Shown one piece after another: positions 5,780 to 63,122 of a stretch of DNA of 64,000 nucleotides (its first letter is position 1; each line of letters opens with the position of its first letter). This stretch comes from Candidatus Zixiibacteriota bacterium. GTDB taxonomy: Bacteria > Zixibacteria > MSB-5A5 > GN15 > FEB-12. Under the pieces are notes generated by a model. The model did not search any database, had not been told where the DNA came from, and saw only the letters and a list, made by a program, of their open reading frames with translations. Both the position numbers and the translations under genes were made by a program. The stretch lies in the NCBI GenBank assembly GCA_020351995.1, contig CP070674.1, positions 2,118,667-2,182,666 of the forward strand, in the 5' to 3' direction.

Positions 5780-7420
5780 ATGTTCGCCAAACCGCTAAGT
5801 TCACGTTTGTTGTGTTTATTCGGTCTTATCGCGATCGGGTTACTTTCGGTGATCCTTATCGCGGCCTGCTCAGATGATAACCCGTCAGCGCCGACACCCG
5901 TCGAACTGCTGGTATCACCTCAGACGATTGAGGAGTCCTCGGTTGTCGGGATACCCAATCAGAATACCGTTCTGATCAGGGTTGATAGTGAACCGGTTCG
6001 CGAGAGTGCGCGCTTTACGTTCAGTTGCGACGCGTCGTGGATTGAGCTCAGCAATCTTGCCGGCACCGACTATGGCAATACCACCGACAGTTTTTCGGTC
6101 ATGTTTTCGGTGGAGGATTTACCAATTGGCAGCTATACGGATTCTGTTTGCGTGACATCGTCGCAAGCAACCAACTCACCACAGTATATCGAGGTCAATT
6201 ACGTCGTCACGCCCCAGGTACCACACTTAAGAGCCTTTCCTACCTGGCTGCACTATTATGCTGAGACCCCGGATCAGGAAATGGATGTTAGAACCATCAG
6301 GGTATATGCGACTGACGACGGACACTACGATTACACCATCGACCAGGTGGCTGATTGGATAACCATATCGGGAGTTTCAGGGATAACCCCCGATACCTTC
6401 GACATCACGGTCGATCCGTCGATCATCATCACCGGCGCGCATGTGGATACCCTGTGGGTGCACGCCAACGGTTTAAGCGACTCACCCCAGTCAGTGGCCT
6501 GCAGTCTGTATATCCATCCATGGCAGCTTCAGACCTCGCTGTATGAAAACTGGATACTGTACGATATGGATTTCGCCGATGATCTACACGGATGGGCGGT
6601 CGGTCTGATAATGGACGATGAAAACTGGTCAGGGTTCATTGTGAAGACATCAGATGGAGAGCAATGGGAGGACATGCTGTTAACGCCGGCATTTGAAGAT
6701 CAGAGATATGGATTATCTGCCCTTGAGATAGTCGATGACGAGATGTGGATTGTTGGACAAAGCGGGATAATCCGCTATACCCAGAATTGGGGAGAAACCT
6801 GGGACTCCAAATCTACAGGGCTCATTGATACCGTTGTTGACCTGCAAGACATCGAGCTGGTCACCAATCAGATAGGCTGGATTGTAGGAGAGGATGGTCT
6901 GATTCTTAAGACAACCGACGGTGGTGATACCTGGACGCCCCAGAACAGCGGAGCCATCAATGTCCTTAGAGCGTGTAGCTTCGTGGACGAAAACACCGGT
7001 TGGGCAGTTGGTGATGCTATGACTGCATTGCGGACGACTGACGGGGGCGAAAACTGGGTGACAATGACCGGGCCATTCTGGGATAGTCGTGACGTTTTCT
7101 TTATTGATGCCAGTACCGGTTGGATTGTCGGCCACGGAGGCAATGTGTCATTCACTGATGACGGCGGCGTAAGCTGGACAGAGCAGACCACTGATTTCAG
7201 CGGCTGGCTGTACACGGTCTTCTTCTATGATCAATCTATCGGTTGGGCCGCCGGTGAAAGTGGCGCGGTTCTATACACGGACGATGGAGGAACCACATGG
7301 ACGCAGCAAACTACGGGTACCGTCAACACCATCTATTCAGTGGAATTCCGGGATCAGTTGCGGGGCAGGATCGCCGGGCAGCGTGGCGAGATCCGTTACA
7401 CAAACTCAGGTGGAAACTAG
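5780..7420 (+). CDS. Lipoprotein with BACON-like and YCF48-type repeats (paralogue)
   Basis: 546 residues, paralogous to the protein at 3369 but with one fewer BACON-like repeat. The signal peptide ends in a lipobox IAAC near residue 30. Two BACON-like domains (about 38-250) are followed by a beta-propeller of YCF48/BNR blades with TTDGGDTW, TTDGGENW and TDDGGTTW. A paired motif (SGIIRYTQNWGETWDS here, SGIIRCGQNYGLDWES in the paralogue) shows the common origin. It is likely exported and lipid-anchored; function is unknown. A strong ribosome site (CAGGAGG) and a downstream terminator mark it as its own transcription unit or the last gene of one. Confidence 0.85.
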   Translation: MFAKPLSSRLLCLFGLIAIGLLSVILIAACSDDNPSAPTPVELLVSPQTIEESSVVGIPNQNTVLIRVDSEPVRESARFTFSCDASWIELSNLAGTDYGNTTDSFSVMFSVEDLPIGSYTDSVCVTSSQATNSPQYIEVNYVVTPQVPHLRAFPTWLHYYAETPDQEMDVRTIRVYATDDGHYDYTIDQVADWITISGVSGITPDTFDITVDPSIIITGAHVDTLWVHANGLSDSPQSVACSLYIHPWQLQTSLYENWILYDMDFADDLHGWAVGLIMDDENWSGFIVKTSDGEQWEDMLLTPAFEDQRYGLSALEIVDDEMWIVGQSGIIRYTQNWGETWDSKSTGLIDTVVDLQDIELVTNQIGWIVGEDGLILKTTDGGDTWTPQNSGAINVLRACSFVDENTGWAVGDAMTALRTTDGGENWVTMTGPFWDSRDVFFIDASTGWIVGHGGNVSFTDDGGVSWTEQTTDFSGWLYTVFFYDQSIGWAAGESGAVLYTDDGGTTWTQQTTGTVNTIYSVEFRDQLRGRIAGQRGEIRYTNSGGN

Positions 7421-47391: not shown

Positions 47392-50300
47392 ATGCGCCGC
47401 CTGCTGAAAATACTGGTTATCGCTCTGATCTGTTTCATTGTAGTCCTTGGCGGAGCCTATATCTACATATTTCATCTGGGCGGCATCGAGTCTATTATCA
47501 ATGCCCGGATTGCCGGTCTTGTGGAAGAGAGGTACCGGCTGGAGGTTCACGTAGGCAGGGTCAAGGGCAGTTATCTGTCGGATCTGGTGATCGAAAATGT
47601 CGTTGCCTATTACAGCGATTCCACCCATCGATATCAGCTTCTCAACATACCCAGAATTGCCACTTCGTATGCCATCGCCAATCTGTGGGATGAGCGCTTC
47701 ATCTTTGACTACCTCAGCATCGATTCGGCGGAGATAGTCCTCCTGCAGGACACATCGGGAGCCTGGGTGATACCTGATTTTAGGCCGGAGCCGAAAGAGG
47801 GTGACACAGCCAGGGCCCCGCTTCCGTCATTCTCGATCGGCAATCTGAACCTCAGGGATCTCAGCGTCAAACTTATCAAGCCCGATGACACGGTCATATT
47901 TGATGATATCTTTGTCTCGCTGGCTTTCAAGGGTGAGGCCAATACCTATTCGGTCGACGTGGAGCAGTTCGAGTTTTCTTCGAGCGAGCGGAAACTGGAA
48001 CTCAACGCTGCCGGTGGGAAAGTTACCTTTGCTGAAAATCGTCTGTTATTTCAGGACATGGCGCTGGTTTCGGGTGAATCGCGGCTGAAATTAGGAGGCA
48101 ACGTCGATCTTAACAAGGAGCCGACCGGTACCGTTGTCTTCGCCGCCGACAACATGAACCTGGCCGATATAACAGCCTACGTGGGGCCGAAGCTGAGTGG
48201 CCTTGTGGACGTGAACGGCTCGGTTAGTTTCGTCGGAGCGAGTTTAAGCGGGACCGTTGATGTCGGCGGAGAGTTTCTCCTGGCCAGTTTCGAGAATCTA
48301 TTCCTCGATTTTTCCTACGACAACAAGTTCCTGCAGTTTGACACGGTTTACGGCACCATCCTGGGAAACTGCGGGATTGACGGCAGCGGTTATATTGATT
48401 TCTCCGGTCCCGTTGAAGCCTACATGCTGGATGCCGGTATCAAAGGTTTTAATCTTAACAATCTCATCAACGGTACTTTCGAATCGGACCTTAACGGCAA
48501 CATTGTCATTTACGGTGAATCCTTTAGTAACGACAACCTGGTTCTGGATATTCGGGCCGACCTGTACGAGTCATCCTTCGATGAATACCCGATCCAGCGC
48601 GGCATCGGCGGGATGGTCATCACGACCGATTCAATTGTCTTTCTCGATTCGTTCCGGGTAGATTACTTCGAGAACATTTTCTACGCTTCCGGGGTGATCG
48701 ACTACAATGAGAATATGAGTCTCGACATTGACATCGACCTTCAGAATCTGGACCGCTACAAAGGCAAACTGTTTATTGACCAGCCGGGCGGAAGGGGCAT
48801 CGCTCACGCCTCCATGACTGGACGAACATCCGACCCGGATCTTAAGGGAGATTTTGTATCCGACTCGGTATGGGTCTATGGTTTGTATTCTGACTCGATG
48901 TATGCCACGGTCGAAATCGAGCGGTTCTTGAGCCGAAAGCTTGGGACGGTCGAGGTTGACTTTTACAGTGGTACGGCCTGGGATATGCCCTACGATACCG
49001 GTTATGCGCAACTCAGGGTCGATTCGAATCTTGTCTTTTTTGATACGGCTTCCACACACAATCCGTATACCCAGCTCTGCGCCGCCGGACAATATGATTA
49101 CGAGGCCGTTCCCGGGTCTCTGAATGTGGATACCCTGTGCCTGAACCTTTTTGGTCAGGCCTTCTATAATCGTTCGGACATTATTGTTGATGTTGATACC
49201 CTGGGCTTTGACTTCAAGCAGGCGGCTATCGGTAATAACGGAGCCGGGCTGTCCGTTAGCGGACGAGCTAATTATGACGAAACCATGGACCTGATGCTTT
49301 CTATCGAGCGAATTCCGATCAAGCCGTGGAAAAATATCTGGGCCGAGAGCTTGCTCGTGGACGGATACCTGTCGGCCGATGCGTCGGTCGGAGGCTCTTT
49401 CATGAGTCCGGAGTTTGTCCTAACTGCGCACATAGATTCTCTGGAATACCACGACCTGATGCTCGGGGAGATGGTTACCGGCGTTGACTATAAGGACCGG
49501 TTGCTGACGATTGAGAACTTCCAGATACTGTCGGGCTATGGCGATTATCGCGCTGAGGGATCATTCTATGTTGATCTGGCTTTCACGGCCGATTCACTGG
49601 AACGTTTTCCCTACCTGCCCATGGAGATATACATAGCGGCAGTCGATAGCCGCTTCGATCTGGTAAGCCTGCTCCAGCCCTCGGTGGAAGAGTTGACAGG
49701 TGACTTCTTCGCCGATGTTGTGCTATCCGGGACACCCAGGGAACCTCATCTGGATGGTGAGGCCTTTATGCTCGCTCCGGAACTCAAGTACTTCGACCTC
49801 GAGCGCCGGTTTCATGGTGATTCAATAGCTGTTACTATGTCAGACAACAGGATTATTATCGATACCCTGGAAACTTACGTGTTCAAGGATGAGGGAAAAC
49901 CGGAGAGAGGTCGGATTTCCGCTGTCGCAACAGGAACGATAACGGTCCTATCGCTGGACAAGTTCTACTACGATCTCGATGTCAGGATCGACGAGGCCTT
50001 CCCCTTCAAGTATGAACTGGACGACATATCGGGTGAAGTAAAAGGTCGGCTGCATGTGGAAGGTGCGGAACCTCCTGAGGTCACAGGTGACCTGACCCTG
50101 GTATCAATGAATTATTTCGTAAATTTCGCCGAGCCCAATCAACTCTCCCCGGTTATCAAGGCCTTTACTGGTGATAATCTCTGGGATCTAGAGATAGATT
50201 TCACCATACCGTCCAATTACTGGATCAAAAATGACGATATTGATGCCGAGTTTGCCGGCGAGGTAACTATGATTCGTGAATCCGGGAAGTATAGCTTTGT

Positions 50301-50958
50301 GGGGCAGATGGAGGTTCTCCGTGGGCGCGGCTTTTTGTTCGACAAGAGTTTTCAACTCGAATCAGGCGGACTTGTTACATTCGAGGGCGGGGAGACCTTC
50401 AATCCGTTTCTCGACATTGAAGCGTATACATATATTACAGGGGTCAGGAGTACCGCGGAGGACGAGAGTCAAACCGAACGGCTTCGATTGGGAATTCTGA
50501 TTACGAACACACTCGAGGAGCCTGAAATTAATGTAACCGAGGACTCTGACGTGGTTTCCCGCGAGGACATCCTTCCTCTGATTGTGGCCGATCAATACTC
50601 AGGCGAAGCGGGTACCGCTACCACCAGCCTCGAAGGGAGAGTGGCCAACCTCGTTTCAGCAGAGTTATCTCAGTTCGGCTACCGGCAATTGGGTCGCAGG
50701 TTGGGAGTAGAGACGATTGAAATCGATCCCGCTTACTCGGGACAGCTTGATCCGCGCAGTGCCAGAGTGACCGTGGGTGCCCAGGATTTCGCCACTATTC
50801 CTAACCTGTATGTCTATGGACGCACACCGCTATCCGTTTCCAGAGGGCAGTTGGAAGTCGGTTTCGAATATCGGTTCAGCAAGGAGTTCATCCTGGAAGG
50901 TCTGGGTGATGAGGAAGGACTCTATCACGTTAATCTGATACTCAACTGGGAATTCTAG
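47392..50958 (+). CDS. tamB: TamB-family (DUF490) translocation and assembly protein
   Basis: 1188 residues. An N-terminal membrane anchor (about 5-27) precedes a very long run of beta strands typical of the lipid-transporting groove shared by TamB and AsmA proteins. The C-terminal ~350 residues match the DUF490 domain: SPVIKAFTGDNLWDLEIDFTIP, SYFVGQMEVLRGRGFLFDKSF-like, DVVSREDILPLIV, NLVSAELSQFGYR and a final aromatic barrel-like end. It spans from the inner membrane toward the outer membrane and works with an Omp85 partner, here the next gene, only 3 bases away. Confidence 0.92.
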   Translation: MRRLLKILVIALICFIVVLGGAYIYIFHLGGIESIINARIAGLVEERYRLEVHVGRVKGSYLSDLVIENVVAYYSDSTHRYQLLNIPRIATSYAIANLWDERFIFDYLSIDSAEIVLLQDTSGAWVIPDFRPEPKEGDTARAPLPSFSIGNLNLRDLSVKLIKPDDTVIFDDIFVSLAFKGEANTYSVDVEQFEFSSSERKLELNAAGGKVTFAENRLLFQDMALVSGESRLKLGGNVDLNKEPTGTVVFAADNMNLADITAYVGPKLSGLVDVNGSVSFVGASLSGTVDVGGEFLLASFENLFLDFSYDNKFLQFDTVYGTILGNCGIDGSGYIDFSGPVEAYMLDAGIKGFNLNNLINGTFESDLNGNIVIYGESFSNDNLVLDIRADLYESSFDEYPIQRGIGGMVITTDSIVFLDSFRVDYFENIFYASGVIDYNENMSLDIDIDLQNLDRYKGKLFIDQPGGRGIAHASMTGRTSDPDLKGDFVSDSVWVYGLYSDSMYATVEIERFLSRKLGTVEVDFYSGTAWDMPYDTGYAQLRVDSNLVFFDTASTHNPYTQLCAAGQYDYEAVPGSLNVDTLCLNLFGQAFYNRSDIIVDVDTLGFDFKQAAIGNNGAGLSVSGRANYDETMDLMLSIERIPIKPWKNIWAESLLVDGYLSADASVGGSFMSPEFVLTAHIDSLEYHDLMLGEMVTGVDYKDRLLTIENFQILSGYGDYRAEGSFYVDLAFTADSLERFPYLPMEIYIAAVDSRFDLVSLLQPSVEELTGDFFADVVLSGTPREPHLDGEAFMLAPELKYFDLERRFHGDSIAVTMSDNRIIIDTLETYVFKDEGKPERGRISAVATGTITVLSLDKFYYDLDVRIDEAFPFKYELDDISGEVKGRLHVEGAEPPEVTGDLTLVSMNYFVNFAEPNQLSPVIKAFTGDNLWDLEIDFTIPSNYWIKNDDIDAEFAGEVTMIRESGKYSFVGQMEVLRGRGFLFDKSFQLESGGLVTFEGGETFNPFLDIEAYTYITGVRSTAEDESQTERLRLGILITNTLEEPEINVTEDSDVVSREDILPLIVADQYSGEAGTATTSLEGRVANLVSAELSQFGYRQLGRRLGVETIEIDPAYSGQLDPRSARVTVGAQDFATIPNLYVYGRTPLSVSRGQLEVGFEYRFSKEFILEGLGDEEGLYHVNLILNWEF

Positions 50959-50961
50959 GCC

Positions 50962-52893
50962 GTGAAGAAGTATCTACTATCGGGCTTTATGATAGTACTC
51001 CTCTGGTCCTCAGGAAGCGGTCAGACAATCGATCGTGAAACCCTGCGCTGGATGCGCGACCGGCCAATCATCGATTCCATTGAAATCACGATCGAACCGG
51101 TGACAATCCGGGATTCGATTACGGCCAGTGATGTCCGGGCCCAGATGTACTCGAAAAAGTGGAACCCACTTCACTGGCTGAGGGGAGAGCGGCGCAGCCA
51201 CCTTCAGCGCGAGACTCTCGACAGGGATACCCTTGAAATAAAATATCTCTATCTCACCAGAGGCTTCCTGGGAGTGAAGGTCGGCGAAACATTTGAGATG
51301 GACCAGAAAGACTCATCGGCTATCGTCAAAGTTCATATCGATCCCGGTCGTGAGTACATCTATGGCCAGACGGGTGTCACAGGAGATTTCAAGCCGGCGT
51401 TTAATAACCTTCTGGCCAGACCTCACCGGAAACTAAAAGAAAGCAAACCGGTTAACCTGCTTGCCGTCCAGCAGGCAACCTTTGATATGAAAACTGTTCT
51501 GGCGAATAATGGGTATCCCTACGCCAAAGTGAGTTTCGAGTTCGATACCGTAACAGCACCCCCTGAGGCCGACCTTACCTTCAAAGTGCAGACAGGTTCC
51601 AAGGTCCATTTCGGTGAGGTCGAAGTTGTTGGCTCAAAAAACTACCCCGAATCGGTCGCGCGTCGGGAACTGACGTTCAAAAAGGGCGACCTTTATCGTC
51701 GAAAAGATATCCTTGATTCCCAGCGCCGGCTCTTTGAGTCGGGCTATTTCAGTTACCTCCAGTTGAGCCAGGCGGGGAACAATGGTGACAGTTTGAACCC
51801 TGATTTCCAGCTTCGCATAAGAGAGCGCAAACCCAAATTTGTTAATATCAAGACCGGTGCCGGTCAGTCGGAACTCAAGGACCTCATCTGGGATTTCTCG
51901 CTTGGAGTAGGGAAACGTAATTTCTTTGGTTCGCGTCGGGTGAGCCTGACTTCCGACTATTCTTTCTCGCTGGGTCAGGAATCGCGCCTCATTACACATC
52001 GTTACCGCCTGCGCTATACCGAGCCGTGGCTTCTGGGAATAAGAATGCCTCTCACCCTGACCGGCGAGTACGAACCGCCGATCAAGTCAACCCTGCAGGA
52101 TTACACTATTACCCAGTGGACCGTGTCGGCCTCGACCACAAAATGGTATGAACTGAAAATCAAGATAACGGCGGGCATCGAGTATAATGAGGTCAAAATC
52201 ACCGACGTTCCCGAGGAAACCGTTCAGGAGTTGAAAGAGGCCGAAGGTATTTCGGTACGGCGGCGTATGTTTACCACTTATCGGCGGGACAGCCGGGACA
52301 ATATCTTTATCGCCCGGTCCGGCTCTCTGACCGACCTCGCGGTGGAGTTCGTCGGCGGTTTTCTGGGTGGTGACGACGACTATTATAAAATCGAAGCAAG
52401 CTGGGCCCGCTACCGGGTTGTCTGGCCTGGTTGGACCTGGGCAACACGGTTTAAAGGCGGCTACGCGACCGAGTTTGGTGACTCGCCGGACGTACCGACA
52501 GAAGAGAGACTGTACCTGGGCGGCGCCAACACGATTCGCGGCTTCAGGGAAAATACTCTCGGTCCCTTGCGCGAGGATGGTTCGGCCGAGGGCGCCCGCA
52601 TCTCGCTGATTTGCAACCAGGAATTCCGGTGGAAGACAATTCAGGTCCTCAGATGGATCCCGCTGAAGGTTTTCGAAACCCTGCCTCTGTACCAGTCGAT
52701 ATTCCTTGATGTCGGCAACGGCTTTCGTAATGGTGAAGAAATTGCCTGGGAGAATCTTGCCGTCAGCTACGGCGCCGGCTTTCAGATTGTTTCTCCGGCC
52801 GGGCCAATTCGTATCGACTACGCTCGGCGGGTCAAGACCGAAAAATATGACTTTGACAGCCGGTGGCACTTCACTATATTATATGCCTTTTAG
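50962..52893 (+). CDS. Omp85-family outer-membrane protein (TamA/BamA-like)
   Basis: 643 residues from a GTG start, with a signal peptide (cleaved near SGSG). About three POTRA domains occupy residues 35-310 (VHFGEVEVVGSKNYPESVARRELTFKKGD is the last, quoted in part). The barrel follows with DYSFSLGQE, RLYLGGANTIRGFRENTLGP and FLDVGNGFR, and the end HFTILYAF. The short POTRA set and the tamB gene 3 bases upstream make it the TamA-type partner, separate from the bamA at 12869. Confidence 0.92.
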   Translation: MKKYLLSGFMIVLLWSSGSGQTIDRETLRWMRDRPIIDSIEITIEPVTIRDSITASDVRAQMYSKKWNPLHWLRGERRSHLQRETLDRDTLEIKYLYLTRGFLGVKVGETFEMDQKDSSAIVKVHIDPGREYIYGQTGVTGDFKPAFNNLLARPHRKLKESKPVNLLAVQQATFDMKTVLANNGYPYAKVSFEFDTVTAPPEADLTFKVQTGSKVHFGEVEVVGSKNYPESVARRELTFKKGDLYRRKDILDSQRRLFESGYFSYLQLSQAGNNGDSLNPDFQLRIRERKPKFVNIKTGAGQSELKDLIWDFSLGVGKRNFFGSRRVSLTSDYSFSLGQESRLITHRYRLRYTEPWLLGIRMPLTLTGEYEPPIKSTLQDYTITQWTVSASTTKWYELKIKITAGIEYNEVKITDVPEETVQELKEAEGISVRRRMFTTYRRDSRDNIFIARSGSLTDLAVEFVGGFLGGDDDYYKIEASWARYRVVWPGWTWATRFKGGYATEFGDSPDVPTEERLYLGGANTIRGFRENTLGPLREDGSAEGARISLICNQEFRWKTIQVLRWIPLKVFETLPLYQSIFLDVGNGFRNGEEIAWENLAVSYGAGFQIVSPAGPIRIDYARRVKTEKYDFDSRWHFTILYAF

Positions 52894-55445: not shown

Positions 55446-56774
55446 GTGCAAGCCTCTCGCTTTAATAAAACCGTCGATCTTGAAAACGGCAGTAAGCTTC
55501 TCTTTAACGCCACCACCGGTGCCATTGCCGAACTGCCGCCGGATATGTACTCGCCGATACGCAGGCTGATAGAATTACCCGATTCAGCCCAGACGGCCGA
55601 AGACAAAGAGCAAGTCGATCACTTACACTACGGTGGCTTTCTCGTTGAAAAAGAACCCGGCGAATTGACCCAGCTTAAGGTCGAATACGGAGACCAGCGC
55701 TTTGGCGGCTCCATTTTCACCCTGGGCATCGTCCCGACCCTAGAGTGTAACCTTGCCTGTTCTTACTGCGCCGGCCGAAAAAACCCGGGCCGCATGACCC
55801 GTCATGTGGAGAAAGCCTTGCTCCAATGGGCCGCCCGGTACATCAGGAAGGCCGACGAAACCCGGATAACCTGGTACGGGGGAGAGCCGCTTCTTTGTGT
55901 TGATACGATTGAACGTATCCAACAGGGCTTTGCCGAAATGGCAAGCGGATATAAGGCAACCCTGGCGGGCAGTACTATTCTCACCAATGGATACCTTTTA
56001 AGTGGTGATATGGCTCGTCGTCTGAAATCCGCCGGGGTAATGTCGGCTCAGGTAACACTTGACGGCTCACTGGAGAAACACGACTCCTGTCGCCCGGATT
56101 CAGACGGTAAACCTACTTTTGACAGAATTATTGACAACATTTGCGAAGCCGCCAAAGATCTTGACGTTGTCGTTCGCGTAAACGTCCATGACGGTGATAT
56201 GACCACCGCCAGAGAGGCCGTGGAGATGCTTGATCAGAAGGATATCCTCTCAAAAGTCGGGTTCTATTTTGGGGAAGCCACCGGGGGATGCGAGGTCTGC
56301 TCGGATGTTACCGGTCGATGCCGCCTGAGTGAGTCGCATGCTCAGGCGCAACTGGCGATATACCGGGCGCTTGCCAGTAACACTAACTGCCGCATGGACT
56401 TCCCGTATCTGACCCCGGGTTCACGATGCGGGTCAACCCGGTCCAATTCGTTTCAGGTGGCCCCGTCCGGCTATCTATTCAAGTGTCAGCATCAAGTCTC
56501 CCCCAGGGTAGACAGTTCGGTGGGAAGTATCTTCTCCGATCAGGTTGAGGACTTCCAGCAATCCAACCAATGGGTTTTTGCCCGCCACGACCCGCTCGGC
56601 AGCTCCAAGTGTCTTGAGTGCGATATACTGCCGGTTTGTATGGGAGGCTGTCCTCGCGAGGCGAAGAAAGAACACAACGAAATCCAATATAAATGCAGTC
56701 CACTGAAAGACATCATGGGAGAGCTTCTTGTACTTAGATACCTTTACGAAGTAGGAGAGGAGGTGACCAGTTGA
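55446..56774 (+). CDS. Radical SAM/SPASM peptide maturase A
   Basis: 442 residues from a GTG. An N-terminal segment (about 1-90) containing NATTGAIAELPPDMY resembles the leader-binding region found on many peptide maturases. The radical SAM cluster site is CNLACSYC (C101, C105, C108), with WYGGEP near 144. The C-terminal SPASM domain has the full seven-cysteine pattern: C328-x13-G-x4-C347, then CLECDILPVCMGGC (C389-C402) and C417. Three further cysteines lie at 282, 285 and 292. Such enzymes install carbon-sulfur, carbon-carbon or ether crosslinks in ribosomal peptides. Its stop codon overlaps the start of the first peptide gene. Confidence 0.9.
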   Translation: MQASRFNKTVDLENGSKLLFNATTGAIAELPPDMYSPIRRLIELPDSAQTAEDKEQVDHLHYGGFLVEKEPGELTQLKVEYGDQRFGGSIFTLGIVPTLECNLACSYCAGRKNPGRMTRHVEKALLQWAARYIRKADETRITWYGGEPLLCVDTIERIQQGFAEMASGYKATLAGSTILTNGYLLSGDMARRLKSAGVMSAQVTLDGSLEKHDSCRPDSDGKPTFDRIIDNICEAAKDLDVVVRVNVHDGDMTTAREAVEMLDQKDILSKVGFYFGEATGGCEVCSDVTGRCRLSESHAQAQLAIYRALASNTNCRMDFPYLTPGSRCGSTRSNSFQVAPSGYLFKCQHQVSPRVDSSVGSIFSDQVEDFQQSNQWVFARHDPLGSSKCLECDILPVCMGGCPREAKKEHNEIQYKCSPLKDIMGELLVLRYLYEVGEEVTS

Positions 56775-56887
56775 TCTTTATCGTTCATCCGACGCGCTCG
56801 GCGCAGAAACCGTGTGGGCTGAAATTGGGACCGTGCCCGAAGAAGGCAATATCCATTCTTCCGCCGATGTACATGGCTTCCCCGTAA
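56771..56887 (+). CDS. Candidate RiPP precursor peptide 1 (38 aa)
   Basis: Starts with TTG overlapping the maturase A stop (TTGA), 7 bases after GAGAGGAGG. The product begins MIFIVHPTRSAQ, has cysteines at 15 and 22 (KPCGLKLGPCPKK) and ends ISILPPMYMASP. It is a close paralogue of peptide 2: in the first 11 codons they differ at five codons, four synonymously and one Ile/Val. That shows selection on the protein. The maturase next to it is the likely modifying enzyme. The family is not recognised. Confidence 0.75.
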   Translation: MIFIVHPTRSAQKPCGLKLGPCPKKAISILPPMYMASP

Positions 56888-57002: not shown

Positions 57003-57137
57003 TTGATCTTTGTCGTTCACCCGACTCGTTCGGCCTCCGGCGACTGCAGTCAAGTAGGACCGTGTTCGCCGAAGTACCGTCCGTGCAGGACGAAGGCGAT
57101 TTATATTCTGCCGCCGATGTATATAGGTCCGCAGTAA
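57003..57137 (+). CDS. Candidate RiPP precursor peptide 2 (44 aa)
   Basis: TTG start after GAGAGGAGGTGA. The product begins MIFVVHPTRSAS, has cysteines at 15, 21 and 28 (GPCSPKYRPC) and ends AIYILPPMYIGPQ. It sits exactly 232 bases downstream of peptide 1 as the second copy of a duplicated unit. Compared with peptide 1, the two ends are conserved and the middle is lengthened by six residues, the pattern expected for a leader, a variable core and a conserved tail. Confidence 0.75.
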   Translation: MIFVVHPTRSASGDCSQVGPCSPKYRPCRTKAIYILPPMYIGPQ

Positions 57138-57250: not shown

Positions 57251-57388
57251 GTGAAATTCATCGTACCGCCCACCAAGGGAGGCAACGGGCCGAAATGCCC
57301 GCCGAAGACAAACCCCTGCGAAGTTGTCTGTTCGACTTTTTGCACCACATTATGCAAGATATTCTTCCCTATTATCCCGCCGTGGTAA
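57251..57388 (+). CDS. Candidate RiPP precursor peptide 3 (45 aa)
   Basis: GTG start after GAGAGGAGGTGA. The product begins MKFIVPPTKGGNGP and has cysteines at 16, 23, 27, 31 and 35, the last four as CEVVCSTFCTTLC (CxxxCxxxCxxxC). It ends KIFFPIIPPW. Its first ten codons differ from those of peptide 5 at five positions, all synonymous. The evenly spaced cysteine ladder resembles cores modified by radical SAM thioether-forming enzymes, such as SCIFF peptides, though the leader is unrelated to those. Confidence 0.78.
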   Translation: MKFIVPPTKGGNGPKCPPKTNPCEVVCSTFCTTLCKIFFPIIPPW

Positions 57389-57420
57389 TAGTCTGAAGTA
57401 TTTCTCTGGGAGTTTGCGTG

Positions 57421-57464
57421 GGAGACGTTGGCGCACCGAAAAACCGGCGTCTCCTGATTCTTTT
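57421..57464 (+). terminator. Terminator-like hairpin after peptide 3
   Basis: GGAGACG and CGTCTCC (57421-57427 with 57448-57454), followed by TGATTCTTTT. Similar hairpins follow peptides 4 and 5. Confidence 0.65.
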
Positions 57465-57491
57465 ACGGCCTCCGGATCGTGCATAATCATC

Positions 57492-57520
57492 TTGACCTTG
57501 AAGGCTTGTGGCAATATGTT
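57492..57520 (+). promoter_or_regulatory. Candidate promoter for peptide 4
   Basis: TTGACC (57492-57497) and TATGTT (57515-57520) with the ideal 17-base spacing, after the peptide 3 hairpin. Confidence 0.55.
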
Positions 57521-57723
57521 AACAATGATATATCGTCCGCGGCGAGGTATATCAGAAAACTAATGCGGCATCCTGGCGTCAATCATTGAACCCTCACAGC
57601 ATTAACGATGACATTTGACTTCCGGATATTGTGCTGAGATTGCCCCGAGTTTTATCGGGGTCATCTCGACAATGGCTCGATACTCTATTTGACTCGCAGT
57701 CGGCGAGAGGAGGCACCTGAACG

Positions 57724-57861
57724 CTGTTTATCGTACCGCCCGTTTTTTCGGGGAAAAAGGGACCATGTCCGGATAAAGTCTGGCCGTGCGGAATCCTGTG
57801 CGCGACCTTTTGCAGTGATAACTGCAAGGTGGTGTTTGTAATCATCCCGCCCAAGCCATAA
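57724..57861 (+). CDS. Candidate RiPP precursor peptide 4 (45 aa, unusual start)
   Basis: From a CTG at 57724 (or ACG at 57721); the frame is closed by TGA just upstream, so no ATG, GTG or TTG can serve. GAGAGGAGG lies 10 bases before the CTG. The product is MFIVPPVFSGKKGPCP, then PCGILCATFCSDNCK and a hydrophobic end VVFVIIPPKP. Cysteines at 15, 22, 26, 30 and 34 have exactly the spacing of peptide 3. Either a rare start codon is used or this copy has lost its start and is silent. Confidence 0.6.
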   Translation: MFIVPPVFSGKKGPCPDKVWPCGILCATFCSDNCKVVFVIIPPKP

Positions 57862-57885
57862 ATCAGGTAGACCTTGGTATTGAGT

Positions 57886-57929
57886 GAGAGGCGCATATCC
57901 GAAGTGGAATCTGCGTCTCCCTTGTTTTT
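57886..57929 (+). terminator. Terminator-like hairpin after peptide 4
   Basis: GAGA and CGCA pair with TGCG and TCTC around a bulge and an inner TCC/GGA stem, followed by CCCTTGTTTTTG. Confidence 0.6.
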
Positions 57930-57963
57930 GCCCGTTGACCAATTTTGCGTCGACATATCGAAC

Positions 57964-58166: not shown

Positions 58167-58265
58167 GTGAAGTTTATCGTTCCACCCACCAAGGGCAAGA
58201 ACAAACCGTGCCCGACTTTTTGCCCGCGCTTGATTTACTTGATTAAATCCCCGGTTCTGCCGTAA
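58167..58265 (+). CDS. Candidate RiPP precursor peptide 5 (32 aa)
   Basis: GTG start after GAGAGGAGGTGA. The product begins MKFIVPPTKGKNK, has cysteines at 15 and 19 (PCPTFCPR) and ends YLIKSPVLP. It is the shortest member and keeps a single CxxxC step with the TFC tripeptide seen in peptides 3 and 4. The codons of its first block differ from those of peptide 3 only synonymously. It has its own promoter and a strong 3' hairpin and lies just before maturase B. Confidence 0.75.
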   Translation: MKFIVPPTKGKNKPCPTFCPRLIYLIKSPVLP

Positions 58266-58290
58266 TTGTAAGTAACGCAAAGTGTCTTAA

Positions 58291-58329
58291 GGGAGACGCG
58301 GCTATATCGACCCGGCTGCGTTTCCCTTC
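58291..58329 (+). terminator. Terminator-like hairpin after peptide 5
   Basis: GGGAGACGCGGCT pairs with GGCTGCGTTTCCC over 13 positions, including three G-U pairs. The following U-run is short (TTCT), so read-through into maturase B is likely. Confidence 0.6.
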
Positions 58330-58359
58330 TGAAAAATAGTGCAGTATTAAGATCGACCT

Positions 58360-59382
58360 ATGGAGCAACAAGACCAAGCCCGTTCTGCGGGTTGGGGAAT
58401 AACCCGCCGATGTAACCTGTCCTGTCCGCACTGCTATAGTGCCGCCTGGAAATCTTCCAAGGACGAGCTCTCCACCGACGAATGTCGTCAGGTCATAGAC
58501 ACCATGCCTGAGTTGGGGGTGGACACAATCGGGTGGACGGGTGGCGAGCCGCTTATCCGCAAAGATCTCGAGGAGCTCATTACTTATGCGCATTCGCTCG
58601 GTATCGATTCGGGTATAACCACTAACGGCATCCTGCTAACCCAAAAGCGAGTAGATAGTATCGCCAAAGCCGGCGTAAACTCTTTCCAGATTAGTCTCGA
58701 CGGTTCTACTGCGGAGCGAAATCGCGACATCCGCGGCGCCCGGCTGAAAGATTTCGAAATTATCATCAATGGCATTAAGATGTCACTTCAGGCCGGGCTG
58801 CCGGTCTATATGGCAATGATTGTCGGGCTGGCGACTCTGGATGATGTCCTTCCATATATCGATTTGGCGCGCGAGCTGGGCGTTACGTCGGTCAGGTTCT
58901 GTGGCTTCGTGCCGCACGGCAGCGCTACCGACGAAGCGGTCAGGAAGCGGCTGGACTACTCGGATCAACCGGAGAAACTCGCCGAGCTGGTTGACCAGCT
59001 TCTGGATATTGAGTCGCCCAAGCTCATTCTCGACCCTGCCCATGGTCCTCTGCCACCGTCCTACGAATTCCACAAGTGCATTGCCGGTGTTGGAACTTTC
59101 TATATATCTGACAACGGCAATGTCTATCCATGCACCGGGTTGCTGGGTGAGCGGTTCCTGGTTGACAATGTCCGAAACCGCCCGCTGCCGGAAATCATCA
59201 GAGATCCCAAGATGACTGAAATGGTTTCGTACGACCGCAATAACATCCACGGCCATTGCCGCGAATGTCCTTATTTCCGCGTTTGTCGGGGGGCCTGTCG
59301 CGGCGCCGTCTATGCCCACACCGGCGACCTCGACGCTTCCTTCCCGGTATGTCTTTTCAGAGCTTCGCAGAATCTTCCCTGA
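58360..59382 (+). CDS. Radical SAM/SPASM peptide maturase B
   Basis: 340 residues. The radical SAM site CNLSCPHCY (C18, C22, C25) lies at the very N-terminus, followed by GWTGGEPL and ISLDGST. The C-terminal SPASM set is complete: CIAGVGTFYISDNGNVYPC, then CRECPYFRVCRGAC and a last cysteine in FPVC. It is of the PqqE/AhbD/NirJ type in architecture. Unlike maturase A it has no N-terminal extension for leader binding. Its place immediately after the five peptide genes suggests a second modification step on them, though a separate role (for example heme or cofactor synthesis) is possible. Confidence 0.88.
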   Translation: MEQQDQARSAGWGITRRCNLSCPHCYSAAWKSSKDELSTDECRQVIDTMPELGVDTIGWTGGEPLIRKDLEELITYAHSLGIDSGITTNGILLTQKRVDSIAKAGVNSFQISLDGSTAERNRDIRGARLKDFEIIINGIKMSLQAGLPVYMAMIVGLATLDDVLPYIDLARELGVTSVRFCGFVPHGSATDEAVRKRLDYSDQPEKLAELVDQLLDIESPKLILDPAHGPLPPSYEFHKCIAGVGTFYISDNGNVYPCTGLLGERFLVDNVRNRPLPEIIRDPKMTEMVSYDRNNIHGHCRECPYFRVCRGACRGAVYAHTGDLDASFPVCLFRASQNLP

Positions 59383-60284: not shown

Positions 60285-63122
60285 ATGAGAAGGGCCGTGA
60301 AAGTAATCGGCTGGGTAGCCGGCATAATTATTGGAGTCTTGATCCTTGCCATTATTGGCCTGTGGTTGTTTTTCCCCGTCGAAAAAGCTAAAGACATGGC
60401 TGTCGAGAAGGGTAGCGCACAACTCGGACGAACCATCACGGTGGAGAGCGCGGACATCTCGTTCTGGGGCGGTCTCGGAGTTAAACTCGGCAATGTGACT
60501 GTCGGCAATCCGCCTGAAATGGCGGAGGGGCAACTGTTGACGGCGGAGAATGTCGATGTCAAACTGCGAATACTCCCGTTGTTGACAGGCAACTATAAGA
60601 TCGACCGACTTGTAATCAATCACCCCGAAATATCAATGGTCAAACGTCGTGACGGCGTGAACAACTTTACCTTCAAGACACTCGAGAAAAAAGCGCCTCC
60701 GGAACTTGCCGAAAAAGCCGCGCCCGAGGCTAAAGCTGCGGCGGTTGCGGTAACATTCGATAAGCTCGTGATCAATCACGGTTCATTGACATATGTCGAT
60801 GACAGTTCCGGGGTCAGCTTTGGTCTGAACGATCTGGACCTGTCCACGTCGCTGACGAGTCCGCGTAAGAACCTTTACAGGTCTTCGGGAGAGATCTCCA
60901 TCGCGTCCGCTGTATTGCCTGCTGACTTGCCGTTGCCCCCGCTTTCTCTCAAGCTCAACTATCACGCGGACTATGACTTTGATGCCAAGCTTATCACTTT
61001 CGATGAAACGGAGTTGGAACTAAGTAAACTCAAGTTCGATCTCAAGGGTGATGTCTCAGACCCTACCGGCCAGCTCAAAAGCAAAATGACTGTCAAATCC
61101 GCAAAGATCTCAGTGGGGGATTTTCTTTCTCTGCTTCCACCTGAAAAGCTCGAGGCCACCAGGGACATTACCATTACCGGTGACTTCGCTCTTGATCTCG
61201 ACCTCGAATATGACCCGAACAACATCGATACTCTGACATACTATGGTACGGCTGTGGTTACGGGGATGAATCTGACTCACAGGGAAGTCTCCGGCGAATT
61301 CAAATTCAAGCGGGCCCTCATAGACTTCAAGAATAACAATCTTCGCTTCAACATCGAGGAAGGATACTTTGACAGCAAACCGGTCAAAGGACATCTGGTT
61401 GTAGACAATTTCTCCGATCCCACTGTTAACGGGGAATTGGCCGGTACGCTGAATCTTGCCTACCTGCAGCCGTTTCTCCCGGCCGAGGGTGGTCACCAGG
61501 TCGCCGGTGAAAGCCAGTTCGATCTGAAGCTATCCGGGAAAACCAACGACTTCGCGGCTATGAATTTCTCCGGAAGCGTGAAGGTGGCTGGGGGTAAATA
61601 CAGTTCGGCCCTGCTGTTTGAACCGGTGGAATCATTTGACCTCGATGTTTATTTCGATAACCGGCTCACTCATGTCAAAAAGCTGACCGGGCGAATGAAG
61701 TCGGGAAACCTTGCTTTCGAGGGCCGACTCAACGATCTTGTTCCGTACTTTTTGGCCGACTCTGTCACCCGTCCTGTCATACATCCCACTATTGATGGCG
61801 AGATCTCCGGCAAGGTTGACCTGGCTATAGCCAATGGCTTTTTGCCGCCGAAAGGTGATCCGGAGTTGAACGGCCAGTTGGAAACCCGGATAAAACTGAC
61901 CGGGGTGCTGACTCAATATGACAAGCTTAAGCCAGGTGGCACACTCTCTATTCGGCAAGCGTCGTACACGGACTCTCTTTTGCCTGAACCGGTGACGCAT
62001 TTCGAAGCCGATATGGTCATCAGCCCGGACACGATTACCATCAGTAATATGACGGCGCGGTTTGTTTCCAGCGATGCCACGTTTTCGGGCAAATTGGCCA
62101 ATCCGTTCCCATATTTGCTTCCGGTTGAAGGTGTGGATCGTACCGAAGTCAAAAAGCCCATTTTCCTGTTCAAACTGTCATCTCATCGATTCGACACGGA
62201 CAAAATGTTCCCCGAAGCGGTGCCGGGCTCGGGTGAGAATCGTGCCACTATGTCGCTCGATTCGGTGTCGACGTTTATCCTTCCCGACATTGACGGCCTG
62301 GGGACCTTTGAGGCCGATACGATTATATACAGCGGCGTGGAGTTAACCTCTATTCAGGGAAAAATAAAAATTCACGACCGGAAAATAGAGTGCTACGACG
62401 CCATTGGCAAAGTCTATACAGGTGATGTTGCCGGGAACACGACTATTGATCTTAACGATTTTGCCCAACCCCGTTATTCCGGCGAGTTCAAAGCCTCAAA
62501 TGTCGAAGCTAACGATTTCATAAGCCGTTTCACAAGGTTCGGGGGGATGGTGTTCGGTAAGGTCAATCTGGAAGGAGACTATGCCGCCAGGGGTTGGGAA
62601 CCAACAGATTTCATCAAGTCTCTCAACATGAACTCGGCGTATACCCAGCTCGAGGGCAAGCTCGTCACCTCCGGGGTGGTGTATTCCTTACTGAACGAGT
62701 TGGCCGAACAGGCCGGCCAGTCTTTTAATAACGAGCAGGCGCTAAAAGACCTCAAGACAAATATTCTGGTCAAAGATGGCCGGGTGGGGCTTGACAAGCT
62801 CAAGACAAAATTGGGGAAAGTGGGTGATGTTGAACTCGGCGGCTTCTACGGCCTGCTTTCAAATGAGATCGACTTCAGCGGGACTATTCTTCTATCGGAG
62901 GAGTGGACACAAAAACTATTCTCGCAAAAGGGCCTGCTCAGCGGTCTGGCCGGGCTTCTCACTGACAAAAGCGTCAATCGTGTCAAGCTCCCGATTGCGT
63001 TCGGAGGAACACCCAACAAGCCCGAATTCAAGATCGACTACGATGCCCTGACCGAGAGTCTGGGCGATGACCTTAAGAAGGATGCCGGAGACCTGCTGAA
63101 AAATCTCTTTAAGAAGAAATGA
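60285..63122 (+). CDS. AsmA-family protein
   Basis: 945 residues. One N-terminal membrane helix (about 6-30) is followed by the AsmA N-terminal motif (ITVESADISFWGGLGVKLGNVTVGNPP, here split as IT-VESADISFWGG and LGVKLGNVTVGNP) and a long series of beta strands forming a groove. The C-terminal ~120 residues contain the AsmA_2-like conserved segment with LLNELAEQAGQ and GVGDVELGGFYGLLSNEIDFSG-like strands. Such proteins move phospholipid between the membranes or limit outer-membrane protein assembly. With tamB at 47392 it is the second AsmA-like protein in the window. Confidence 0.88.
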   Translation: MRRAVKVIGWVAGIIIGVLILAIIGLWLFFPVEKAKDMAVEKGSAQLGRTITVESADISFWGGLGVKLGNVTVGNPPEMAEGQLLTAENVDVKLRILPLLTGNYKIDRLVINHPEISMVKRRDGVNNFTFKTLEKKAPPELAEKAAPEAKAAAVAVTFDKLVINHGSLTYVDDSSGVSFGLNDLDLSTSLTSPRKNLYRSSGEISIASAVLPADLPLPPLSLKLNYHADYDFDAKLITFDETELELSKLKFDLKGDVSDPTGQLKSKMTVKSAKISVGDFLSLLPPEKLEATRDITITGDFALDLDLEYDPNNIDTLTYYGTAVVTGMNLTHREVSGEFKFKRALIDFKNNNLRFNIEEGYFDSKPVKGHLVVDNFSDPTVNGELAGTLNLAYLQPFLPAEGGHQVAGESQFDLKLSGKTNDFAAMNFSGSVKVAGGKYSSALLFEPVESFDLDVYFDNRLTHVKKLTGRMKSGNLAFEGRLNDLVPYFLADSVTRPVIHPTIDGEISGKVDLAIANGFLPPKGDPELNGQLETRIKLTGVLTQYDKLKPGGTLSIRQASYTDSLLPEPVTHFEADMVISPDTITISNMTARFVSSDATFSGKLANPFPYLLPVEGVDRTEVKKPIFLFKLSSHRFDTDKMFPEAVPGSGENRATMSLDSVSTFILPDIDGLGTFEADTIIYSGVELTSIQGKIKIHDRKIECYDAIGKVYTGDVAGNTTIDLNDFAQPRYSGEFKASNVEANDFISRFTRFGGMVFGKVNLEGDYAARGWEPTDFIKSLNMNSAYTQLEGKLVTSGVVYSLLNELAEQAGQSFNNEQALKDLKTNILVKDGRVGLDKLKTKLGKVGDVELGGFYGLLSNEIDFSGTILLSEEWTQKLFSQKGLLSGLAGLLTDKSVNRVKLPIAFGGTPNKPEFKIDYDALTESLGDDLKKDAGDLLKNLFKKK

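Follow-up and report, generated by a model that had tools for sequence, protein, structure and literature searches.

A cassette in the window analysed here (the whole 64,000-nucleotide stretch of DNA, from a Candidatus Zixiibacteriota bacterium) encodes two radical-SAM maturases, A and B, and five short peptides, and we read it, with a probability of roughly 0.6, as a Clo7bot-like, ranthipeptide-type thioether RiPP system in which peptides 1 to 5 are the precursors, A forms thioethers in repeated, directional Cys-to-Thr steps and B is its partner. The kind of system is known (radical-SAM, cysteine-rich RiPPs of the Clo7bot neighbourhood); its branch, here called type I, and the repeated Cys-x-Thr step are undescribed in the literature searched, the open literature having yielded no paper on the type I cassette or branch and none joining Zixibacteria, RiPPs and radical SAM. 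We computed the genes, the ladder of evenly spaced cysteines in two of the peptides, its conservation at genus level, the threonine bias, the pairing of A with B, the selection acting on the precursors of relatives and the fold relationship of A.

The genes follow one another in the order mnmA (tRNA-thiolation), maturase A, five short genes, radical-SAM gene B and an MBL-fold hydrolase, with A, the five peptides and B on the forward strand. Maturase A (55446..56774, 442 aa) is assigned as a radical SAM / SPASM peptide maturase from Pfam, NCBIfam, its conserved cysteines, a structure model and its fold; maturase B (58360..59382, 340 aa), a second radical SAM / SPASM protein that is without an RRE, is assigned from Pfam, NCBIfam and its relatives. 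Between them lie peptide 1 (56771..56887; TTG start, 38 aa, two cysteines, no ladder, ISILPP tail), whose start and the maturase A stop codon overlap, and which has a homologue at the same position in the relative G002; peptide 2 (57003..57137; TTG start, 44 aa, three cysteines, IYILPP tail, with C-R-T inside); peptide 3 (57251..57388; GTG start, 45 aa, tail FFPIIPPW); peptide 4 (57724..57861; CTG start and 45 aa, or 46 if begun at the possible ACG at 57721, tail VFVIIPPKP); and peptide 5 (58167..58265; GTG start, 32 aa). Four of the five (1, 2, 3 and 5) are preceded by GAGAGGAGGTGA, and peptide 4 by GAGAGGAGG. Peptide 4 is omitted from a standard ORF list because it has no ATG, GTG or TTG start, the in-frame codons before FIVPP being TGA (57718), ACG (57721) and CTG (57724); the ACG stands at the same spacing from GAGAGGAGG as the GTG of peptide 3 does from its own upstream element, with the CTG three bases beyond, and with such a non-standard start peptide 4 might be poorly translated. 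A second precursor in G002 (IFVSVIGPEASRKKPCPLPS..., near 7186 of locus L035) resembles peptide 4 (57721-57726) in having no standard start and a good ribosome-binding site at about the usual distance.

A stable, terminator-like hairpin with a T-rich 3' side follows peptide 3 on the same strand (57389..57465, folding at -22.3 kcal/mol), and similar hairpins follow peptide 4 (57862-57935, -20.2 kcal/mol) and peptide 5 (58266-58330, -27.3 kcal/mol); every precursor may be its own transcription unit. None of the three was listed by a simple terminator scan, counts of promoter-like and terminator-like signals gave no useful excess over shuffles, and an Rfam search at the peptides returned no RNA family, its single listing, CC2171, falling far under the gathering score. 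The three hairpins share a strong GGGAGACG...CGTCTCCC form with the T-rich 3' side, and a sequence like them lies 3' of the second G002 precursor (L035, after 7186). Further out, a large protein, AsmA-like by appearance, is encoded downstream of the hydrolase (60285-63122), and a pair that appears TamB-like and Omp85-like (47392-52893) lies upstream of a cysteine desulfurase and mnmA; this order around the cassette is common to G001 and G002. The neighbouring MBL-hydrolase gene had no match in the genus-mate G003, and hence there was no empty site for comparison.

The cysteines stand at positions 16, 23, 27, 31 and 35 of peptide 3 (steps CEVVC-CSTFC-CTTLC) and, reading from the CTG, at 15, 22, 26, 30 and 34 of peptide 4 (CGILC-CATFC-CSDNC). 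The first-pass annotation of this DNA had reported C-x6-C-x3-C-x3-C-x3-C in both 45-residue peptides, with PC, TFC and IIPP in common and a single step, CPTFC, retained in peptide 5 (58167-58265), all of which our reading bears out, peptide 4 being 45 aa if read from CTG; FIVPP and CK are common to peptides 3 and 4 too. The only acidic residues in the two ladders lie within two steps, CEVVC and CSDNC. The spacing is far from what composition would give: the five window peptides hold seven i,i+4 cysteine pairs against 1.26 in shuffles, a number reached in none of 5000, and CxxxCxxxCxxxC occurs in the 64 kb only in peptides 3 and 4 and one 16-residue stretch on the minus strand, its mean in 20 mononucleotide shuffles of the window being 0. 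The coding DNA of peptides 3 and 4 is 56% identical and 12 of their 24 shared residues use different codons, which argues that the ladder spacing has been kept through long divergence. By sequence the two are old paralogues, so that their common spacing does not count as two independent events. Peptides 1 and 2, and also the regions upstream of peptides 2 and 3, are duplicated units, 73-81% identical. A precursor profile finds peptides 3, 4 and 5 at E values of 2.8e-6, 5.5e-7 and 9.3e-10, each of these peptides being itself a row of the profile.

In a scan of a genome collection maturase A alone gave no match and an alignment query did; the search for relatives with maturase A reached 24 of 61 genomes at E <= 1e-20. 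In a tree of 55 A proteins the window's A falls within a clade of 19 type I proteins (SH-aLRT 100), of which one record is labelled Acidobacteria and the others come from Zixiibacteriota or from genomes in the order of the window. Type II, a second clade, has 12 proteins (support 99) and sits on a supported branch with the Clo7bot-type maturases of Clostridia. The pairing of A and B is constant, B being 44-65% identical and standing beside A in 15 type I loci, whose neighbourhoods showed no conserved exporter, protease or metal partner gene. Type II loci comprise A', B', precursors of the form MIYLIDP...YGVPP and a complete ABC exporter; some add a B12-dependent radical-SAM protein. With type I, the radical-SAM RiPPs gain an undescribed two-maturase branch, and one from a phylum represented here by metagenome-assembled genomes alone.

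Type I precursors have a leader of the form M-[KRIL]-[FIL]-[ILV]-x-x-[PS] (MKFIxxP type), a start of the core as '(K)P-C-P' and a hydrophobic, ILPP-type tail, and in the window and several relatives their genes overlap the stop of A or lie directly against it. They evolve under purifying selection and are genes, not chance frames: substitutions between close relatives are nearly all synonymous (the type I pair L039/L040 shows 12 synonymous changes and 1 replacement, the type II pair L052/L033 21 and 2). In the genus-mate G001 (locus L036) a 50-aa peptide in the corresponding position reads C-PTD-C-ALL-C-GTY-C-PTL-C, with five cysteines all at i+4; its first gap is x3, not x6, and it has three residues fewer ahead of the second cysteine. 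G002, whose maturase A is the closest, yielded no ladder peptide, and most other type I loci have one C-P-x-x-C step (CPWYC, CPYYC, CPWLC) or only CPC. The first-pass annotation had held that orthologues without the spacing would speak against its reading, and on this the relatives divide: the ladder persists in the genus-mate, with its five cysteines and altered first gap, and is not kept outside the genus, where the objection partly holds. From this distribution the ladder is conserved beyond the two window copies but is genus-specific, an elaboration of a simpler core. The relatives provide a natural series of precursors, from Cys-Pro-Cys through one C-P-x-x-C step to the five-cysteine ladder, with related leader and tail, and are thereby a ready means of testing how an enzyme like CteB counts repeated cross-links and sets their direction. 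Cysteine pairs at i,i+4 outnumber those of every shuffle in three groups of precursors: 12 against 1.8 for the window genus, 24 against 4.7 for type II, the paralogous family, and 27 against 11 for distant Clo7bot-like loci.

Within the window genus the C-x3-C steps follow a consensus, C-[PSAG]-T-[FLY]-C (CSTFC, CTTLC, CATFC, CPTFC, CGTYC, CPTLC, CPTDC), which type II precursors partly share (CATLC, CSTYC, CGTYC, CTTFC, CATFC, CKTYC). Threonine stands at C+2 in 7 of 12 steps of the window genus, with 0.8 expected, and in 8 of 23 type II steps, with 1.7 expected, and neither count is reached in 3000 shuffles; the test was devised after the motif had been noticed and the sequences are related, so that the shuffle counts overstate significance and the figures are indicative. 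A hydrophobic or aromatic residue occupies C+3 in 9 of 12 and 18 of 23 steps, respectively. Distant Clo7bot-like peptides are not enriched in threonine at C+2 (3 of 25). The SCIFF precursors taken for comparison, which come from three Clostridia-type genomes, also form a ladder of i+4 steps with Thr at C+2; they read CQTSCQSACKTSC, or GGCGECQTSCQSACKTSC, with steps CQTSC / CKTSC (C-x-T-S-C). The thioether of CteA has been placed between Cys32 and Thr34, through the threonine gamma-carbon (PMC8326336, PMC8172795), an earlier study having put it at Thr37. The C-x-T-x-C step common to the window genus and SCIFF looks more like analogy, or a very ancient shared origin, than membership, because the two maturases are of distinct families (A reaches 60.9 bits on TIGR03974, the SCIFF maturase model, whose cut-off is 425); shared by otherwise unlike precursors, it yields a concrete prediction of the acceptor residue. 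Most type I precursors, with CPC or CPxxC, have no C-x-T step, and threonine therefore cannot be a general acceptor in the type I enzyme clade.

Both maturases carry the CxxxCxxC motif and the seven-cysteine SPASM set of SPASM-domain radical SAM enzymes. In A (Pfam Radical_SAM, 1.2e-14), C101, C105 and C108 are invariant among 16 sequences, as are the seven SPASM cysteines (C328-x13-G342-x4-C347, C389-x2-C392-x5-C398-x3-C402 and C417); in B (Radical_SAM 4e-29, SPASM 1.4e-8) the corresponding C18/C22/C25 and C240...C331 are conserved. The structure model of A (pLDDT 80.5) has at its N-terminus, with high confidence, strands at 7-11, 17-21 and 26-30 and helices at 32-43, 51-62 and 73-86, the three strands and three helices of the winged helix of an RRE, and we assign an RRE-like domain to about residues 1-85; CteB, which bears an RRE, aligns from residue 4. 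CteB, the SCIFF thioether synthase, is the nearest solved structure of A by sequence profile (5wgg, 4.5e-24), by Foldseek (5why/5wgg, E 1e-16, TM 0.67-0.70) and by VIA-align, which superimposes it on residues 4-437 with a Z of 24. TigE (8vpo), a further radical-SAM RiPP maturase, matches along the entire length as well (Z 21.4), and anSME matches the core equally closely (Z 23.8). As modelled, the fold favours an RRE-bearing peptide radical-SAM maturase and leans toward thioether chemistry without proving it. In CteB, the auxiliary cluster closest to the active site leaves one site open, which a cysteine of the peptide can occupy (PMC6231123). In A there is no cysteine shortly before C328, but the linker cysteines C285 and C292 are invariant and could fill such a site. 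Within the superfamily, maturase B sides with PqqE, mycofactocin, AhbD-NirJ and SkfB; none of its NCBIfam scores (AhbD, NirJ2, mycofactocin, PqqE) reaches the cut-off, and its nearest solved structures are PqqE (6c8v) and SkfB (6efn).

From these elements we infer the leader docking, the thioether chemistry and its order, the acceptor positions, the role of B and the biological use, as follows. Peptides 1 to 5 would be RiPP precursors, and their short leader, of the MKFIVPP type, would probably bind to the RRE of maturase A as a docked beta-strand. The enzyme would then form sulfur-to-carbon thioether bonds from the precursor cysteines. A ranthipeptide is defined by cysteine linked to the beta or gamma carbon of another residue, and what points in this direction is the C-x-T context together with the CteB-like fold. 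In peptides 3 and 4 the C-x-T-[FLY]-C repeats suggest several links in the same direction, each running from a cysteine to the threonine two residues on, as in Cys32-Thr34 of CteA, and maturase A would make them successively along the chain. Steps without threonine (CEVVC, CGILC, CALLC) may use other acceptors or be left free and open. Maturase B, the constant partner, may carry out a second modification, possibly at the constant tail, or help with the first. Against this, a shared fold shows no function, TigE over its full length and anSME over its core matching A too, and the choice of threonine is at odds with the precursors that have no C-x-T (most of type I) or no Thr enrichment (the distant Clo7bot-like peptides); the after-the-fact design of the threonine test and the non-standard start of peptide 4 weigh against it as well. 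A bolder version, in which A and B are an exporter-less, two-step intracellular pathway to a small cofactor-like or redox peptide, B altering the conserved Cys-Pro-Cys-Tyr / ILPP core and the window genus having expanded that core into successive Cys-to-Thr thioethers, one per repeat, with an undescribed ranthipeptide topology, strikes us as a long shot.

The same precursors could instead be sactipeptides, with cysteines linked to residues of the conserved tail. No other part of the type I precursors is conserved as widely as the ILPP / IIPP tail, kept even in peptides with CPC only, and the sactisynthase SkfB is among the nearest solved structures of B; however, this leaves the threonine bias within the ladder unexplained, cysteine number varies between 1 and 5 beside a nearly constant tail, and A is nearest to CteB, whose product was reassigned to a C-gamma link (PMC8326336), and we consider the reading unlikely. 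Free cysteines binding a metal or an Fe-S cluster, with the radical enzymes modifying other residues such as the conserved Ile/Leu/Pro tail, are distinctly improbable. Radical-SAM RiPP maturases such as TvgB act on aliphatic residues (PMC9062424), which makes a reaction away from cysteine possible, and the ILPP tail is conserved where the ladder is not; but C-x3-C repeats are no usual cluster or metal motif, and the cysteine spacing and threonine bias are common to two families of this maturase type. Metal binding by the ladder, raised in the first-pass annotation beside directional thioether formation, found no evidence in our analysis, no metal partner gene being conserved at type I loci. 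That the ladder is a functionless accident of recent duplication of one precursor gene is largely excluded, for although parts of the cassette are clearly duplicated (the 73-81% identical units described above) and no ladder was found in the nearest relative, G002, the DNA of peptides 3 and 4 is only 56% identical and every second residue that they share has a different codon, G001 has its own five-cysteine i+4 ladder, and type II and Clo7bot-like peptides are likewise enriched in this spacing.

Returning to the Clo7bot-like thioether reading, the cassette shares features with several known systems and departs from each: (i) The nearest family of A by sequence is Clo7bot with its sister maturase family TIGR04463, which the first-pass annotation had not named, at scores below the cut-offs (TIGR04463, 222 bits of 525; TIGR04334 Clo7bot, 220 of 600); on TIGR04334 a type I relative (L037) scores 341 and two Clostridia loci 596 (L105) and 590 (L115). 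Clo7bot and the present cassette both have several small cysteine-rich peptides beside one SPASM maturase, a leader M-x-[FYW]-[IVL]-x-x-P and cysteines often at i,i+4, whereas here B is always present, the tail is ILPP / IIPP, A forms its own clade and the scores lie far under the cut-offs. The sole NCBIfam match of peptide 3 is the Clo7bot peptide TIGR04333, at only 9 bits (cut-off 31; E 1.2), the other 23 type I precursors having no match to a model that gives 40 and 34.5 bits to the L115 peptides used as positive control. Membership of Clo7bot (TIGR04334/TIGR04333) is rejected on these scores. (ii) SCIFF (CteA/CteB, Tte1186) shares the i+4 ladder, Thr at C+2 and, in CteB, the nearest fold over the full length including the RRE, and differs in that there are two maturases here, several peptides, another leader and tail, and no membership by family model. 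The resemblance to SCIFF precursors proposed in the first-pass annotation thus holds for the ladder, its threonines and the fold; membership (TIGR03973/TIGR03974) is rejected, with A at 60.9 of 425 bits and no precursor matching TIGR03973 at E<=10. Searched across genomes, TIGR03973 matched in three Clostridia-type genomes and gave no match in the window's own, where the controls of that search were also silent. That leader and tail are unlike those of SCIFF was correctly noted there. (iii) Freyrasin and its maturase PapB have repeated Cys-x3 steps along a short core and one SPASM enzyme (PMC9413430), but PapB links Cys to Asp/Glu in CX3D/E, whereas the window ladder has Cys at Cys+4; this type (CX3D or CX3E core) is rejected, the ladder steps of peptides 3 and 4 being Cys-x3-Cys, and A scores 107.7 bits of 340 against PapB. 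PapB also shows that the spacing need not be due to one helix face, on which the first-pass annotation had placed the thiols, for it links Cys-Xn-Asp with n = 0-6 and accepts D-residues (PMC9413430). (iv) Cys-every-fifth peptides (CefB, NF038107) have evenly spaced cysteines and a related maturase; here i+4 occurs in three steps with no long regular repeat, and A is below the cut-off (156 bits of 600). (v) The thuricin CD and ruminococcin C cassettes also have two radical-SAM maturases beside small cysteine-bearing precursors (PMC12093266, PMC8188230); they are antimicrobial sactipeptides with alpha-carbon links, in contrast to a type I cassette without a conserved adjoining exporter or peptidase.

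Several further loci are of note. Loci L180 (G049:C53) and L181 (G046:C73) have type I precursors (MRFIEKRQ...NNCPWLCKKLVYYILPPW), two to three in number, with no maturase in the contig stretch read, which indicates that precursors can be orphaned from A and B. Among the loci L120 (3527), L101 (5379) and L129 (4499), those of Cloacimonadota and Eisenbacteria encode longer peptides with evenly spaced cysteines, and that of Fusobacterium encodes GCSVLCPTFCPRLC, with a PTFC step as in peptide 5 and an unrelated tail. The window's own genome has a second, paralogous cassette of type II at 2.71 Mb (G000:C1:2707000-2722000, L049), comprising A', B', two precursors (MVYLIDP... and MVFLIDP...) and an ABC exporter; a tricorn-like S41 protease gene lies nearby, and two genus-mates have its homologue close to their type II cassettes too. 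In the type II cassettes of two genomes, L052 (3737-5164) and L054, a B12-binding radical-SAM protein, a candidate peptide methyltransferase, is encoded between B' and the exporter.
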